Source: Sulfurovum sp. (GTDB lineage: Bacteria; Campylobacterota; Campylobacteria; Campylobacterales; Sulfurovaceae). Taken from it: 39,785 bases of DNA. Position numbers and translations under genes: made by a program. This document shows positions 17,371 to 23,810 of this stretch, one piece after another (the first letter of the stretch is position 1; every line of letters begins with the position of its first letter). The notes under the pieces are model-generated. The model worked only from the letters and a program-made list of their open reading frames with translations, was not told the origin of the DNA and made no database searches. The stretch is taken from positions 1 through 39,785 of the forward strand of contig JAMOSB010000025.1 of NCBI GenBank assembly GCA_027068485.1, written 5' to 3'.

Positions 17371-18117
17371 ATGAGAAAACAACTACTACTCACTTCACTT
17401 ATCGCTACAACAGCACTGACCCTTGTCGGGTGTGGTGGTGGAGGCGGGTCGAGTGATAGCACCAAGACAACAATTGATGAGAAATACATCGGTGTCTGGT
17501 ACAATGAAGAGACACCTACAACCGTCGTCTATGTCTATAGTGATAGAGCCATTGTCTTTAGTGCGGTAGAGTCGACCAATAGCTGTACCCAGACAGAGGT
17601 ACTCTCTGCATCAGAGTTCAATGAGGAGATAGAGAAGGAGGAAGATGAGTTCTTAGATGCGAGTGAGTCAGGCTATCTGAGTCGTATTGAGTCTGCGTGT
17701 GGTACCTACACTTCACTCGCCAGTAGCACCACCCCCTCTACCCCCTCTACAGGGACTCCCTCTACCCCAACCAGTGGGAGTGACCTCACAGGAACAATAT
17801 GGAGTGTCACTGAGACAGGGCTAACCGAAAACTGTGGTGATGGACTGAGTAATGACAGCTATAGTATCAGCGTCCTCTCCTACACAGGAGGGATTATCAA
17901 GGTCAATACCACCGTAGGTGTACAGGTAGGACACTACTCAGGCAGTGACATCAGCTACAGTGGAAGCTACCCAGAGGATGGTGGTACCACTATCTCCACG
18001 AGTAACCTCACACTCAATAGCAGTAGTACCCAGCTTACGGGTATGGTGATCTGGAGTTGGTCAGATGGCACTATGAGCTGTAATGGTACCTCAAGCGTCA
18101 CCGCAACAAGAAACTAA
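17371..18117 (+). CDS. Lipoprotein with Thr/Pro linker, unknown function
   Basis: A 248-residue lipoprotein: signal peptide MRKQLLLTSLIATTALTLVG, lipobox LVGC with Cys21, then a run of five glycines. Residues about 35-115 form a small Cys-containing domain (KYIGVWYNEETPTTVVYVYS). A Ser/Thr/Pro linker (about 118-138) separates it from a beta-rich C-terminal domain that starts GTIWSVTETGLTENC. Four cysteines follow the lipid-modified one in the two domains and may form disulfides. AGGAG precedes the ATG. The domain style (lipocalin or META-like, starting with a 'GxW' strand) is only a resemblance. The next gene shares the signal peptide and poly-Gly start, so the two are a paralogous pair at least there. 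Confidence 0.8.
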   Translation: MRKQLLLTSLIATTALTLVGCGGGGGSSDSTKTTIDEKYIGVWYNEETPTTVVYVYSDRAIVFSAVESTNSCTQTEVLSASEFNEEIEKEEDEFLDASESGYLSRIESACGTYTSLASSTTPSTPSTGTPSTPTSGSDLTGTIWSVTETGLTENCGDGLSNDSYSISVLSYTGGIIKVNTTVGVQVGHYSGSDISYSGSYPEDGGTTISTSNLTLNSSSTQLTGMVIWSWSDGTMSCNGTSSVTATRN

Positions 18118-18187
18118 TGCACGCACTTATCACAGAAACAGCCTTTTTAGTGTAAACTACAATAACTATATATATAAGGAGAAAAAT

Positions 18188-19735
18188 ATGAAACAACAGA
18201 AACTAATGCTCTCACTCATCACCGCAACAGCACTCACACTCGTCGGATGTGGTGGTGGTGGAGGTGGTGACTCTGAGAGTAGCAACCCTACCAATAGCAC
18301 CGTTACAGGTATCTTCCAAGATGCCAATGTCTCAGGACTCAACTACAGCTGTAGCTCAGGCTCAACAGGCTTCACCAATACCAAAGGGGAGTTTACCTGT
18401 AAGCAGGGAGATACCGTAAGCTTTTCTCTTGGTAGCTATGTATTGGGAAGTGTGACTGCCTCTTCTGGGATAGTTACCCCTATGGCACTCTACCCCAATG
18501 ACCCTGAAGCGGTCACCAATATCCTTCAACTCCTTCAGACACTTGATGATGGATCTGATGGAACCATCACTATCCCAGAAAACTACACCACTCTCAATGG
18601 TATCACTACGCCTCCAACTGCTGCAGACTTTGATAGTGTTATAGAGCAACACCTAGGACACCCACTCGTTAGCCCTACCCATGCCCATGCCCATATGCTT
18701 CAGACCATTATAGCGGGGAACACCCTCTACACCACTATTGATGATCAGATGGGTACCCTAGAGAGCTGGTCTTTCAATAGTGATATCAGCAGTGTGACTT
18801 GGCAAGAGATGGTTGGAGGAAACGGTAGCGATACAGAGAGTGCCTCACTCAGTGGCAATGTCCTCACGATCGATGGCAATGCCACCATCACCTTCACCCA
18901 GACACTTAGTGACTATATGGTAGCTGAAGTGGTCGATGGCAACCACACTGAGCATCTACGCGTCTACTATAATGAAACAGCCGCAAGAGCCTACTTCTTG
19001 GCGACTACGCCTAGCACACCGACCACCCCCACTACCCCAACCACCCCAACCACCAACCTCGCTACACTCCTTGCGGGTAAAACCCTCTATACGACTATCT
19101 ATGATCAGATTAAGACGCTTGAGAGTTGGCAGTTTGATACGAATATGTCCCATACTAATTGGCAAGAGATGGAGGGGGGAAGTTGTACGGGTAATGGAGA
19201 ACTCGCCGTCAATGGGATGGTGATGACCTACACCAGTAGAAATGATAGCTGTGATCCACAAGATGTCAATGAGACCTCAACACTCACCGTCACACAAGTC
19301 AAGAAAGAGTACCTACTCATCTCGGCCGATGGGGATACCCCTCAGCGTGTCTACTTCGATGAGGCAAAAGCCAGAAACTTCTATATTGCCCATGCAGTTG
19401 AGAACTACTTCACAGGTCAAACACGCTACTTTGCCAATGTCAATGGGGACACAGGTGTACGCACCTACCAAGCCAACGGCACCTACACAGGCACCACAGG
19501 CAATAGCACGGTGGGAGGCTCCTACACTATTAGTGGGGATACCCTTACACTACACAATACCATGGCAAACCGCACCCTAACACTCACCCATACAGGGTAT
19601 GGCTATGAGGGTGAACTCTTCGATGTCGAAGTGACTGAGTCCAACGGAAGCAAACACAGCGTCAACTCCTACTCCTACCGTAGCCAATCGGCACGCGATG
19701 CGGGTAAAGTAGCCTATGAGGCTGACCACCCATAG
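18188..19735 (+). CDS. Lipoprotein with internal domain duplication, unknown function
   Basis: A 515-residue lipoprotein: lipobox LVGC with Cys21 followed by six glycines. Residues about 38-100 hold a small Cys-containing domain (YSCSSGSTGFTNTKGEFTC). Two similar modules follow, about 171-272 and 292-400, both opening with AG(N/K)TLYTTI(D/Y)DQ and containing (T/N)WQEM(V/E)GG and RVY(Y/F) (N/D)E. A TPTTPTTPTT linker joins them. The C-terminal part (about 405-515) has a repeated Thr/Gly/Asn strand pattern. AAGGAGAAAAAT precedes ATG 18188; a longer reading from 18083 lacks a signal peptide. It lies 70 bases after the preceding lipoprotein gene with no terminator seen, so they may be cotranscribed. 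Likely surface or periplasmic. Confidence 0.8.
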   Translation: MKQQKLMLSLITATALTLVGCGGGGGGDSESSNPTNSTVTGIFQDANVSGLNYSCSSGSTGFTNTKGEFTCKQGDTVSFSLGSYVLGSVTASSGIVTPMALYPNDPEAVTNILQLLQTLDDGSDGTITIPENYTTLNGITTPPTAADFDSVIEQHLGHPLVSPTHAHAHMLQTIIAGNTLYTTIDDQMGTLESWSFNSDISSVTWQEMVGGNGSDTESASLSGNVLTIDGNATITFTQTLSDYMVAEVVDGNHTEHLRVYYNETAARAYFLATTPSTPTTPTTPTTPTTNLATLLAGKTLYTTIYDQIKTLESWQFDTNMSHTNWQEMEGGSCTGNGELAVNGMVMTYTSRNDSCDPQDVNETSTLTVTQVKKEYLLISADGDTPQRVYFDEAKARNFYIAHAVENYFTGQTRYFANVNGDTGVRTYQANGTYTGTTGNSTVGGSYTISGDTLTLHNTMANRTLTLTHTGYGYEGELFDVEVTESNGSKHSVNSYSYRSQSARDAGKVAYEADHP

Positions 19736-19743
19736 CCGATAGC

Positions 19744-20871
19744 CTACACCAAGACCAAGACCTCCCCAAAGGGAGGCACTATCTGCTCAGGTACCACCCA
19801 TATCACATCATAGTGTGGCGGTGCGTGAGGAAAACTCCCCATACCATCTGTAAAGTAGAGGAGAAGTGTCGGATAGGCTCCCCTCTGCTCAATCCATTCA
19901 AATACAGGACGGAAGTCTGTCCCCCCTCCCCCTTTGACCTCATACGATAGCGGTTCACCCGTCACAAACTGCTCATGCGACTGGATACGACTATCAGCGG
20001 TGAGGAGTTCTATCTCATAGTGGGGGAAGTGTTGCATGATCGACTCCACCTCTGCCATAAACCCTGCCAAGAGACTCTGATCTATCGAGCCTGAGGTATC
20101 GATAGCGATCACAAGACGAAGCAGATCAGAGCTAAGCGTAGGCAGATAGATACCGCAGTAGAGATACTTTTGATTGGGTGGGAAGAAGCTGTAGGTACTC
20201 TTTGCATAGGCATCGATCGCACGGTGAAGCAGTGTCCGCCAATCGACACGACTCACAAAGAGTGTTGGGACAACCCATTTCAGATCCTTGGGGAGCGTTC
20301 CTTGACGCTGGCTCTTTTGAAAGAGCTGTTCAAACTGCTCTTGCATCGAGATACGCTCCACTTCCCCCTCTCTCTCACCCTGCCCACTAGCTGAGATAGG
20401 CTCTCTTCTGCTCTGCTCCTTAGAGAGATCACCCTGCGGGGATGACTCCTGCTCACTCTGAGGATTCTCCTCCATACTCTCATGTAAGATAGCGTAGATC
20501 TCCTCTGTGTACATCCCCTCAAACTGAGGCTGATAGGGAAGATACTCTGGACAGACCAGTCCATTTTTGACCAACATCGCATTGATCGCCAAATCACTCG
20601 CCTCCTGCCAGAGCCACCCGACCCGCTCTGCCCCACGCTCTTGGTGCTTGAGTAGTGCGTGCATCGCACCATTTGCCAAGACAAACTCCATCTCCTCCAC
20701 TGAGAGGCGTTGGATATACTCCTCATTGATAAAGAGCGTCACCCCATCACTTCGCAGGGTCATCTCTTGGTTATCGGGGACTACCTCTAGAGCTGAGGCG
20801 AGTGTCCCAAAGTAGGGATGCTCTAGCATCAGTTTAGACTTGGCTCGATTCAACTTGGTGTGGTAGGTCAT
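19744..20871 (-). CDS. DUF2201-type metallopeptidase-like/VWA protein with degenerate HExxH
   Basis: A 375-residue protein with two domains. Residues about 1-130 match the DUF2201 metallopeptidase-like domain: the strand LFINEEYI, then LANGAMHALLKHQERG and EASDLAINAML. Where relatives have HExxH this protein has Asn67-Gly68-Ala-Met-His71, so the first His and the Glu are missing. A charged Gln/Glu linker (about 132-175) follows. Residues about 250-375 are a VWA-like domain with MIDAS-type residues: DTSGS at 258-262, Thr318/Asp319 (GGGGTDF) and Asp342 (FTDG). VWA proteins of this kind are typical adaptors of MoxR ATPases, and one is encoded two genes upstream. GTAGGGTAC precedes the ATG. Confidence 0.85.
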   Translation of the reverse strand: MTYHTKLNRAKSKLMLEHPYFGTLASALEVVPDNQEMTLRSDGVTLFINEEYIQRLSVEEMEFVLANGAMHALLKHQERGAERVGWLWQEASDLAINAMLVKNGLVCPEYLPYQPQFEGMYTEEIYAILHESMEENPQSEQESSPQGDLSKEQSRREPISASGQGEREGEVERISMQEQFEQLFQKSQRQGTLPKDLKWVVPTLFVSRVDWRTLLHRAIDAYAKSTYSFFPPNQKYLYCGIYLPTLSSDLLRLVIAIDTSGSIDQSLLAGFMAEVESIMQHFPHYEIELLTADSRIQSHEQFVTGEPLSYEVKGGGGTDFRPVFEWIEQRGAYPTLLLYFTDGMGSFPHAPPHYDVIWVVPEQIVPPFGEVLVLV

Positions 20872-20884
20872 GATAGTACCCTAC

Positions 20885-21247
20885 TTACACCATCGCCTCT
20901 TTTGCCTCATCGAGTAGCTCCATCATCGACTCAGAGATCTCTTCGAGTGACTCCAGATAGTCTACGGCTCTCTGCTTGGTCTCCTCCGTGAGTGTGGTAG
21001 TCTGATAGAGGTTGAAGATCTGCATATACATATCATGGAGCATATGGTGAGCGAGGTCTATCTCCTCCATCGCCTCCTCATCGATCGCATTGAGTAGCCC
21101 CTCTTCGTGGAGAAGTTTGCCAAACTTACACGCTGTATCGGCTACGGGTACGACATCGGAGATGGTGTGTACCTCAACCATCGCTTGGGCATGACGCAAC
21201 CACTCAAGGTGTGCCGACTTGGCGGCTTCTAACTGTATACTACACAT
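20885..21247 (-). CDS. Stand-alone CZB-type zinc-binding protein
   Basis: A 120-residue helical protein that resembles the chemoreceptor zinc-binding (CZB) domain: HLEW (His13, Trp16), then CKFGKLL (Cys40) and HHMLH (His67 and His71), the expected His-Cys-His-His ligand set. CZB domains usually sit at the end of chemoreceptors or diguanylate cyclases and sense zinc or oxidants such as hypochlorous acid. Here the domain is alone, soluble, without signal peptide, and continues into a C-terminal acidic helix. It lies 14 bases upstream of the DUF2201/VWA gene and downstream of the MoxR gene, which suggests a sensor or structural subunit of that system. AGAGGAGTAGATAG precedes the ATG. Confidence 0.75.
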   Translation of the reverse strand: MCSIQLEAAKSAHLEWLRHAQAMVEVHTISDVVPVADTACKFGKLLHEEGLLNAIDEEAMEEIDLAHHMLHDMYMQIFNLYQTTTLTEETKQRAVDYLESLEEISESMMELLDEAKEAMV

Positions 21248-21329
21248 CTATCTACTCCTCTTTGGGTATGGATTTATTGTGCGACTATTCTATAGGAGCA
21301 TCACTTATAGGGGTATTAAATCCCCCAAC

Positions 21330-22334
21330 TTAACACAACAGGTAGGCAAACTGCTTCACCCACGCCCCCCACTCCGAGGATCCCTCTACACCGATGCCAC
21401 TCAGTTGCATATCTTTGACTAACATAATGGCAAACTCCCCTGGGAGTCTTAGGGAGAATCGTAAGAGGTGATCGATCGCCTCCTCACTGGGGTGGTCTCG
21501 AAGCTGGTTGACCACACCAATGACCAGTGCCATCAATACCTTAGGGTCATCACTCTCCACCCTTTCGATACGCCCCTCAATCACATCGGTGAGATTGGGG
21601 AGCTGATCCATCACCTTACAAAAACTCAGATACCCAATCGCCCCCTCACGCCCAACAGCACCCGTGAGGGTCTCAAGCAGGAGGTTCTCAGGGATCTTGG
21701 AGTCCATCAGCCGATCGACATACTCCCATGAGCGAGGGGTCGCAAAACTCTTTTGATTGGCAAGGGGGTCAAAGGTGAAGAGCATCGCCCTATCATACGC
21801 TAAGTAGGCGATGATACTACTCTGCACCCCACGGGCATACGCCCACTGCTTCCACTCCTCAAAGTCCACCTCCATCTCAAAGTGTACAAAACGATTGGCA
21901 AGGGGTGGGGGCATCTTGTAGACAACTCCCCTATCACTCTCCCGATTGCCCGCAGCGACGATACTCCACCCCTCAGGGAGCGTATACTCCCCCACCCTTC
22001 TATCCAAGATCAGCTGATAGGCAGAGGCTTGCACCGCAGGGGGAGCGGTGTTGATCTCATCGAGGAAGAGTACCCCACGACTCGTAGGATCACTAGGTAA
22101 GAAACTTGGCTTCGCCCAGACCCCCTCCTCTCGCTGAGGATCAAAAAAGGGAATACCCTTCAAGTCGGTGGGATCGAGAAGAGAGAGACGCAGATCCAAA
22201 AACTCCAACCCCTCCACTCTCGCAATCTCCTTGACGATAGAGGATTTACCTATCCCTGGGGCACCCCAGATAAAGAGGGGGAGTTTCTGCTCAATAAGCT
22301 GGGTCGCTACGGTGATAATATCAGTGGCTTTCAT
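21330..22334 (-). CDS. MoxR-family AAA+ ATPase
   Basis: A 334-residue AAA+ ATPase of the MoxR group, which act as chaperone-like remodelling enzymes with VWA partners. Walker A GAPGIGKSS (24-32), Walker B VLFLDEIN, sensor-1 IVAAGNRES and an arginine-finger-like PPLANRFVHFEME are all intact. The C-terminal lid domain contains FATPRSWEYVDRLM. There is no signal peptide. The start codon overlaps the stop of the repeat-protein gene (ATGA), and the CZB and DUF2201/VWA genes follow on the same strand, so all four are likely one operon. The substrate is unknown. Among described systems the closest analogies are RavA-ViaA and CbbQ-CbbO, by architecture only. Confidence 0.9.
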   Translation of the reverse strand: MKATDIITVATQLIEQKLPLFIWGAPGIGKSSIVKEIARVEGLEFLDLRLSLLDPTDLKGIPFFDPQREEGVWAKPSFLPSDPTSRGVLFLDEINTAPPAVQASAYQLILDRRVGEYTLPEGWSIVAAGNRESDRGVVYKMPPPLANRFVHFEMEVDFEEWKQWAYARGVQSSIIAYLAYDRAMLFTFDPLANQKSFATPRSWEYVDRLMDSKIPENLLLETLTGAVGREGAIGYLSFCKVMDQLPNLTDVIEGRIERVESDDPKVLMALVIGVVNQLRDHPSEEAIDHLLRFSLRLPGEFAIMLVKDMQLSGIGVEGSSEWGAWVKQFAYLLC

Positions 22335-23725
22335 CGTCTGATCTCCTTGGCTTCATACTGTAGTGCGGTGGCGTGTGCATCGATGAGGTGGGGGTTTTGG
22401 GCGAGGGCTTTTTGGAGTCGGGTATCTACTGTGAGGATATCGAGTAGCTCCCGTGGCAAAGCGGGGTTACTTGCTAGGGCTTGGTTGATCGCCAAAGACT
22501 CCTGCTCAAAGAGCCTACGCAGTAGCCCTTGAGGGAGTGCGGGGTTGCTAGCGAGTGCCACAGCTACTGCCTCTTCACCCTGCTCATAGAGTTCTTCTAG
22601 CCGTTGGGGGGAGAGGTTTGGGTTGCTCGCCAGTGTGACCGCACTCCCTGCTACACGGCGTAGATAGAGTGATTCGAGTTGTGCCGTAGAGAGGAGTCGA
22701 TTGCCCCCAAGATAGCACAAGAGGGTAGGGTTCTCCTGCTCAAGAAGTCGCTCCACTACCACCTTACTCAACTGCTCATTGGCACCCATCAGCCCAAATA
22801 GCTCCGCCTCAATACCCGCCAACTCCACAGATGCAAGTCGCTCAGAGTCGATGGGTTGACGCACTAGCAGGAGGGCTTTGGTCTGCTCCTCTCGCCTAAG
22901 TAGTCGCTCAAAGAGTGCCGTATCGAGTGCGGGGTTGACTGCTAACGCCTCATCAATCGCGGGATGATGCTTCTTAGCTAAGCCCCTTAGCACCTCTAGT
23001 GCCACGGTTCGATTGCCCGCTAGAGCAGTATCGATCGCCACGGAGGAGTGATGCAGCAACTTCTGCACCAAGACTGCATCGATCGCAGGGTTCTGGGCGA
23101 TAGTCTCTTGGAGTGTCACCTTTGCTCGCCCCCGCACCACAAACTCAAAGTTGGGAAAGCCCATCAGTGCCATCAACAACGCACTATCGGTCGCTTCACT
23201 CGCAAGCTGTCTAAGGGTGAGGTAGCTGTGTAGGATATCCTCCTCATTGGGGCGGATAGCGATATAGCGTCGCAGGGTGTGGATAATGACATCCCGATCC
23301 TCACGCCGATCCTCCTCACTATCTCCCCACTCATAGAGTCTTAGAAGCTTTACAAAGAGCGAATCGGAGAGATCCCCATTGCCAAGGAGTCGATGGATAC
23401 GGGCTTGGTCATTGGAGAGCTTGATCCCCATAAGGAGTTCATCATCATTGATCTGCTCCGAAAGGAGTCTCTCAAACACCCGCAAAGGGTAGCTTGGTAC
23501 CCCCTGTGCATAGAGCTGTTCACTGAGTTGCTCATCGAGGGGATTGAGTGCGTGATGCTCTATCATCGCCACCACCCCCTCACTATGTGCTTCGACTACA
23601 GAGAGCGTAAAACGCTTAAGAAAGTGGGCGATCTCCTCACGGGTGAAGCCCCCTTCTCGACCTAAAAAGAGCAGTTTTTTATCGGGGTTGGATGCAAGCA
23701 GTGCTTGTAGTGTTGGCTTTCTCAT
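22331..23725 (-). CDS. Leucine-rich-variant/HEAT-like repeat protein
   Basis: A 464-residue soluble protein made largely of alpha repeats of about 24 residues with the pattern LAxNPxLxxxLLxxL. Clear units include LASNPNLSPQRLEELYEQG, LASNPALPQGLLRRLFEQ, LASNPALPRELLDIL and LAQNPHL at the C-terminal end; weaker units run from about residue 200. Such leucine-rich-variant repeats form curved scaffolds for protein binding. The Cys cluster found in some LRV proteins is absent. ATG 23725 gives MRKPTLQALLAS; a GTG at 23743 is also in frame, and neither has a clear Shine-Dalgarno site. As first gene of the MoxR operon it may be the scaffold or substrate-recognition part. Confidence 0.75.
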   Translation of the reverse strand: MRKPTLQALLASNPDKKLLFLGREGGFTREEIAHFLKRFTLSVVEAHSEGVVAMIEHHALNPLDEQLSEQLYAQGVPSYPLRVFERLLSEQINDDELLMGIKLSNDQARIHRLLGNGDLSDSLFVKLLRLYEWGDSEEDRREDRDVIIHTLRRYIAIRPNEEDILHSYLTLRQLASEATDSALLMALMGFPNFEFVVRGRAKVTLQETIAQNPAIDAVLVQKLLHHSSVAIDTALAGNRTVALEVLRGLAKKHHPAIDEALAVNPALDTALFERLLRREEQTKALLLVRQPIDSERLASVELAGIEAELFGLMGANEQLSKVVVERLLEQENPTLLCYLGGNRLLSTAQLESLYLRRVAGSAVTLASNPNLSPQRLEELYEQGEEAVAVALASNPALPQGLLRRLFEQESLAINQALASNPALPRELLDILTVDTRLQKALAQNPHLIDAHATALQYEAKEIRR

Positions 23726-23810
23726 GATAGAACATTGTAACACAGGTATGATTAAATCGGAGGTTATTTATCTGATTTGTAATCATACACTACATTTTAG
23801 AATAATCTGA

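Follow-up and report, generated by a model that had tools for sequence, protein, structure and literature searches.

A conserved MoxR, DUF2201-VWA and LRV gene trio as a candidate ternary remodelling machine in Sulfurovum and its relatives

MoxR-family ATPases paired with VWA proteins are widespread, and to our knowledge only a few of these pairs have a known client. The best-studied pairs act on metalloenzymes, as with the FeB insertase NorQ-NorD (PMC9976466, PMC13036017), for which a finger-in-pore and twisting mechanism has been described (PMC13036017), and MoxR and vWA proteins also occur together in the ternary systems of Kaur et al. 2020 (PMC7159879). Here we describe a locus of a Sulfurovum sp. 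genome, lying in a window of 39,785 nucleotides (the whole of the analysed stretch, contig JAMOSB010000025.1), where a MoxR ATPase and a DUF2201 VWA protein are encoded together with an LRV repeat protein. This trio is a repeatedly conserved set whose description we did not find in the papers searched: literature searches that combined MoxR with DUF2201 or with the leucine rich repeat variant returned no paper, and none of the related papers, which were available mostly as titles and abstracts with subscription journals largely outside the scope, was recognised as describing it.

The locus comprises four genes on the minus strand in the order LRV protein, MoxR, CZB protein and DUF2201-VWA protein (Table 1); all four open reading frames were recovered and their Pfam matches agree with the initial annotation, which had named an LRV protein, an intact MoxR, a free CZB protein and a DUF2201/VWA protein. 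The spacing was described there as ATGA overlap or short gaps; the LRV/MoxR junction is the only one with an ATGA overlap, MoxR and CZB are separated by 82 bp, and 13 bp lie between the CZB and DUF2201 genes. A search of this 82-bp gap for a consensus promoter gave no match and its predicted folding was not above chance; a terminator-like stem is present at the end of MoxR, a kind of match hardly commoner there than in shuffled sequences. In GC3 the CZB gene (0.63) resembles its neighbours (0.56 to 0.62). The repeat protein has an alternative GTG start at 23743, 18 bp upstream of the ATG. On the plus strand, two adjoining lipoprotein-like genes with a common VGCGGGGG start motif lie at 17371 to 19735 of the window, the second of them convergent with the VWA gene.

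Table 1. Coordinates and supporting evidence for the features of the four-gene locus, numbered along the window
Feature	Positions	Strand	Evidence
BRCT-LRV repeat protein, 464 aa	22331..23725	minus	ATG at 23725; Pfam LRV_2 3.2e-10; AlphaFold; structure matches; orthologues
Predicted BRCT-fold domain, residues 8-91 of repeat protein	23453..23704	minus	Predicted model, structure matches
MoxR-family AAA+ ATPase, single AAA module, 334 aa	21330..22334	minus	Pfam AAA_3/AAA_5; invariant catalytic residues
Stand-alone CZB protein, 120 aa, putative ligands H13, C40, H67, H71	20885..21247	minus	Pfam CZB
DUF2201 VWA-type co-chaperone, 375 aa	19744..20871	minus	Pfam DUF2201_N/DUF2201; MIDAS; VWA fold

The ATPase carries an AAA_3 domain (1.2e-8, 35.3 bits against a cut-off of 27), and its sequence holds the MoxR-family elements Walker A, Walker B, sensor 1, arginine finger and sensor 2; residues K30/S31, D92/E93, N130, R148 and R201 do not vary among 30 aligned sequences. 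The solved structures closest to the alignment profile of this protein are those of midasin/Rea1 (best 4.1e-17). A phage origin was considered and rejected, the viral contigs holding no relative of the MoxR protein. MoxR relatives were seen in 754 phage records, some of large phages; identity was at most about 40% among the matches listed, and the two phage regions inspected around such relatives had no annotated VWA neighbour.

Its linked VWA partner, with matches to DUF2201_N (1.9e-30) and DUF2201 (2.1e-27), consists of a degenerate metallopeptidase-like N-terminal domain and a C-terminal VWA domain with an intact MIDAS, in which the DxSxS, T and D elements are complete in all 44 aligned Campylobacterota proteins. 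The predicted model has a VWA fold (Z about 12) and also matches the MIDAS structures of midasin. No HExxH motif was found among the 44 Campylobacterota sequences, which have an NGAMHxxLxH-like sequence instead; the motif is present in the Thermus DUF2201 protein, and its loss suggests that the N-terminal domain in Campylobacterota is probably not a peptidase. Residues 226 to 247, just ahead of the VWA domain, rank among the best conserved of the protein (0.74; mean 0.60) and are mostly of low confidence in the single-protein prediction, two properties that make this stretch a candidate docking element.

The LRV_2 match of the repeat protein scores 40.3 bits against a cut-off of 27, placing it in the LRV family, and its AlphaFold model (mean pLDDT 91) has an N-terminal beta-alpha-beta-beta-alpha-beta-alpha fold followed by a helical solenoid that matches the structure 1lrv (VIA Z 9.4). 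The topology of the first ~90 residues is that of a BRCT domain, so that the LRV protein is predicted to start with a BRCT fold, a feature new to this work. This assignment draws on the BRCT domain of LigA (VIA Z 9.3, rmsd 2.5 over 76 residues), further BRCT structures (Z 7.0 to 8.4) and a Foldseek probability of 1.00; VIA itself cautions that Z values under 8 can be common, a level that the LigA match exceeds, and several independent BRCT chains concur. Sequence support is thin, with a single orthologue (L059) giving a subthreshold Pfam match (E 0.096), and a search of solved structures by sequence with the LRV protein returned nothing significant. In an alignment of the orthologues with LigA from the same genome, none of them has the threonine of its TG pocket, Leu or a similar residue taking its place, and the pocket lysine position is not conserved; the domain therefore looks unable to bind phosphate, judging from these aligned residues, and a role as phosphate reader is unlikely. 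The most conserved part of the protein is the segment at residues 92 to 155 (0.65, compared with 0.53 for the BRCT domain and 0.50 for the solenoid), which sits between the two.

These three proteins are strongly linked by their joint presence across the family. Among 60 family genomes, with presence assigned from matches by E-value and identity, 30 have MoxR, VWA and LRV, 27 have none and 3 are mismatched. The mismatches are all fragmented drafts; G171 and G173, which lack LRV, are only 81 to 82% complete, and G156 lacks VWA. Taken pairwise, MoxR and VWA are both present in 32 genomes and both absent from 27, with MoxR alone in 1 and VWA alone in 0, and MoxR and LRV are both present in 31 and both absent from 27, with MoxR alone in 2 and LRV alone in 0; these counts and the associated Fisher values ignore shared ancestry. 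Since the trio-present and trio-absent states both occur within at least six genera, joint gain or loss has happened repeatedly. More broadly, 11 of 121 phylum genomes have a MoxR of the same type, and all 11 have the VWA protein and 10 the LRV protein (again uncorrected for ancestry). It could be that the operon simply holds independent genes and that the LRV protein is a co-transcribed passenger, as operons of this group readily take up unrelated genes, but LRV tracks MoxR and VWA even when they are unlinked: in the complete genomes G141, G159 and G122, VWA lies about 104 kb, 474 kb and 949 kb from an adjacent LRV-MoxR pair, and 63 kb separate LRV from MoxR in G047. The adjacency of LRV and MoxR also recurs in other phyla, several times with overlapping genes, and we give the passenger explanation almost no credence. 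The earlier suggestion that the repeat protein is a third component of a MoxR-VWA machine is thus borne out by joint presence in the family and by recurrence beyond it.

The CZB gene behaves differently. Its product has a Pfam CZB match (8.4e-8, 32.9 bits against a cut-off of 29.4), has all four ligands of a putative 3-His/1-Cys zinc site, and is the genome's only protein to match the CZB profile. The initial annotation read it as a metal or redox gate, that is, a free zinc or oxidant switch controlling the MoxR-VWA pair in a four-component chaperone. Its position between MoxR and VWA, the intact ligands and its being the sole CZB protein would suit such a switch, as would the location of VWA beside the zinc-uptake genes znuA/B(C) in four relatives and the greater frequency of CZB relatives in trio genomes (11/33 against 1/27, p 0.007, a statistic that ignores shared ancestry). 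However, CZB adjoins VWA at 1 of 45 loci, this genome's own, and at none of the 44 others, and the other 77 genomes of the genus hold no CZB homologue above 44% identity. Relatives at or below that identity are found in 12 of the 60 genomes of the family and in 34 of the 78 of the genus (the window's genome being counted in both); they are mostly ~153-aa proteins encoded elsewhere, beside genes that by eye resemble unrelated antiporter, aminopeptidase or tRNA synthetase genes. Further, 22 of 33 trio-bearing genomes have no relative detectable with the window's single CZB protein as query, a search that would leave room for a more distant CZB protein there; these include G122, G132 and G150, near-complete genomes of the same genus that keep the trio. 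The same operon in other genomes holds other inserts (a short-chain dehydrogenase-like gene, ThiD-like and thioredoxin-like genes, or a 4-kb stretch). As a conserved component the CZB protein is rejected on adjacency and co-occurrence, and the gated chaperone is highly improbable. The weak positive association with the trio could stem from ancestry, and we judge the CZB gene to be a lineage-specific local insertion rather than a core part, at most an accessory of one species. A free CZB protein is also less unusual than was first supposed: CZB-only proteins make up 27.1% of known CZB sequences (PMC8262984), and what sets the window's protein apart from them is that it is encoded within a MoxR operon, an arrangement seen at no other locus examined. 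Checked across genomes, then, the four-gene set divides, with the repeat gene co-occurring with the MoxR-VWA pair and CZB not co-located with it.

LRV upstream of MoxR-DUF2201 is not confined to Campylobacterota, and its presence in Cyanobacteria, Chloroflexota, Deinococcota, Burkholderiales and a Verrucomicrobiota MAG is new here. Among the best 80 matches in named genomes, 31 loci lie outside the gammaproteobacterial group, and 16 of these have LRV immediately upstream of MoxR; one of the 16 LRV proteins is short, at 171 aa, and matches weakly, and contig ends truncate several of the loci that remain. By record title the carriers belong to Cyanobacteria, Ktedonobacteria and other Chloroflexota, Deinococcales and Burkholderiales, with one Spartobacteria MAG, and a Thermus plasmid (pTHEOS01) has LRV, MoxR and DUF2201 in the same gene order. 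All eight upstream proteins of other phyla that were tested passed Pfam LRV at 3.1e-24 or better. One LRV protein upstream of MoxR (L153:2387-4975) has an N-terminal WGR domain. In the MoxR tree the Campylobacterota group is separate from the LRV-bearing group of other phyla (the branches of L087, L133 and L135 are too long to place), so that the pairing with LRV is either ancient and was lost in some lineages or has two separate origins.

An LRV neighbour is missing from about half of the loci of the other-phyla clade, from a whole sister subfamily in Campylobacterota and from the whole gammaproteobacterial group, which indicates that MoxR-DUF2201 pairs in general can function without LRV. 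A gamma- and betaproteobacterial family of ~385 aa follows VWA at 21 loci, mostly within 200 bp, set against 36 loci that have enough downstream sequence, and the second Campylobacterota subfamily has neighbours of about 187 and 230 to 240 aa that look helical by eye. The ~385-aa family is found at L168-L216 in sulfur- and iron-oxidising gamma- and betaproteobacteria, and the one member scanned had no Pfam match. A large BspA-type LRR_5 protein (L087:2918-5119, Pfam 9.3e-123) adjoins a divergent MoxR-VWA pair, and a 592-aa protein on a Sphaerotilus plasmid (L132:3079-4857), LRR-like by eye and with no Pfam match at E 0.05, overlaps the MoxR-DUF2201 start. We entertain, at a little under even odds, a widespread and undescribed class of ternary MoxR-DUF2201 AAA+ remodellers in which the adaptor would differ from lineage to lineage: Campylobacterota would use BRCT-LRV; Cyanobacteria, Chloroflexota, Deinococcota and Burkholderiales an LRV protein that in some cases carries WGR; others LRR proteins; and sulfur- and iron-oxidising proteobacteria the ~385-aa family.

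The surroundings of the trio bear on what it might act on. Around the 45 Campylobacterota loci the commonest families are MoxR, VWA and LRV themselves, the next reaching 6 of 45, and no client gene recurring beside the trio was found; the neighbours read as mostly housekeeping. The VWA gene has zinc-uptake genes nearby (znuA and znuB-like; ZnuA Pfam 5.5e-68) at L048, L052, L060 and L070. These znu genes and an ExbB/OmpA-like pair each occur in four related loci and look like inherited synteny. Were the trio a metal or cofactor insertase for a single metalloenzyme recognised by LRV, in the manner of NorQ-NorD or CoxD-CoxE, the metalloenzyme clients of the best-studied pairs, the znu neighbours in four relatives and the many gammaproteobacterial-group carriers that are sulfur or iron oxidisers by name would all fit; no metalloenzyme gene recurring beside the trio was found, though, and carriers span differing metabolisms, and we consider this role fairly unlikely. 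Membership in a conflict or defence system akin to those of Kaur et al. 2020 (PMC7159879), also raised in the initial annotation, would account for the ternary MoxR-vWA design, the patchy presence inside genera and the plasmid copies that adjoin DUF262 or helicase genes. Against it, Pfam and NCBIfam searches found no VMAP, iSTAND, FtsH or beta-propeller domains, the bpMoxR profile reached 20.1 bits (cut-off 27), the best PADLOC match was no stronger than E 0.002, and the 78 neighbours in other phyla gave isolated PADLOC matches only. Around the Campylobacterota loci no family outside the trio exceeds 6 of 45. The idea has found no positive support in this lineage and is improbable.

We favor a ternary remodelling machine composed of a MoxR motor, a DUF2201 VWA co-chaperone and a BRCT-LRV adaptor or scaffold, to which we assign a probability of roughly 0.6. 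What we observe is that the three genes co-occur and recur together, that ATPase and MIDAS motifs are intact, that DUF2201 has lost its peptidase motif and that the LRV protein has a predicted BRCT fold; complex formation, remodelling and the adaptor role are inferred. If the machine works as NorQ-NorD does, its MoxR ring would bind the VWA protein and move it against a client (PMC9976466, PMC13036017), and ATP hydrolysis would twist or pull the bound client, which may thereby be matured, activated or disassembled. Client choice would fall to the LRV protein, which may dock via its conserved segment at residues 92 to 155 and could serve as a lineage-specific adaptor or client-recruiting scaffold, a role suggested by its shape as a solenoid, by its co-occurrence with MoxR and VWA and by the exchange of third proteins from one lineage to another. 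A third protein that travels with a MoxR-VWA pair offers a concrete handle on client selection, and such an adaptor could be used as bait; the result also corrects a tempting redox-gate story.

The trio fits none of RavA-ViaA, NorQD, CbbQO and the published ternary conflict systems. It shares a MoxR-VWA pair with RavA-ViaA, but its VWA partner matches only DUF2201_N and DUF2201 in Pfam and is not of the ViaA type, and the 334-aa MoxR shows none of the extra domains that we take to be specific to RavA. Midasin/Rea1 likewise combines an AAA motor with a MIDAS domain, in one giant chain, whereas motor and VWA are separate proteins in the trio. The resemblance to NorQ-NorD (PMC9976466, PMC13036017) extends to a single-module MoxR and a VWA partner with an intact MIDAS and a separate N-terminal domain, but that partner is DUF2201 rather than NorD and the trio has an LRV protein as its third member; inspection of the loci revealed no nor genes nearby, and no NCBIfam model, including any NorQD or CbbQO equivalog, came near its cut-off for the DUF2201 protein or MoxR. 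The main text of Kaur et al. 2020 (PMC7159879) contains no mention of LRV, BRCT or WGR; their systems similarly have three genes, a MoxR, a vWA and a third component, which in the trio is BRCT-LRV and not VMAP, iSTAND, FtsH or a beta-propeller. Other MoxR-DUF2201 lineages, in turn, differ from the trio in having a third protein other than LRV.
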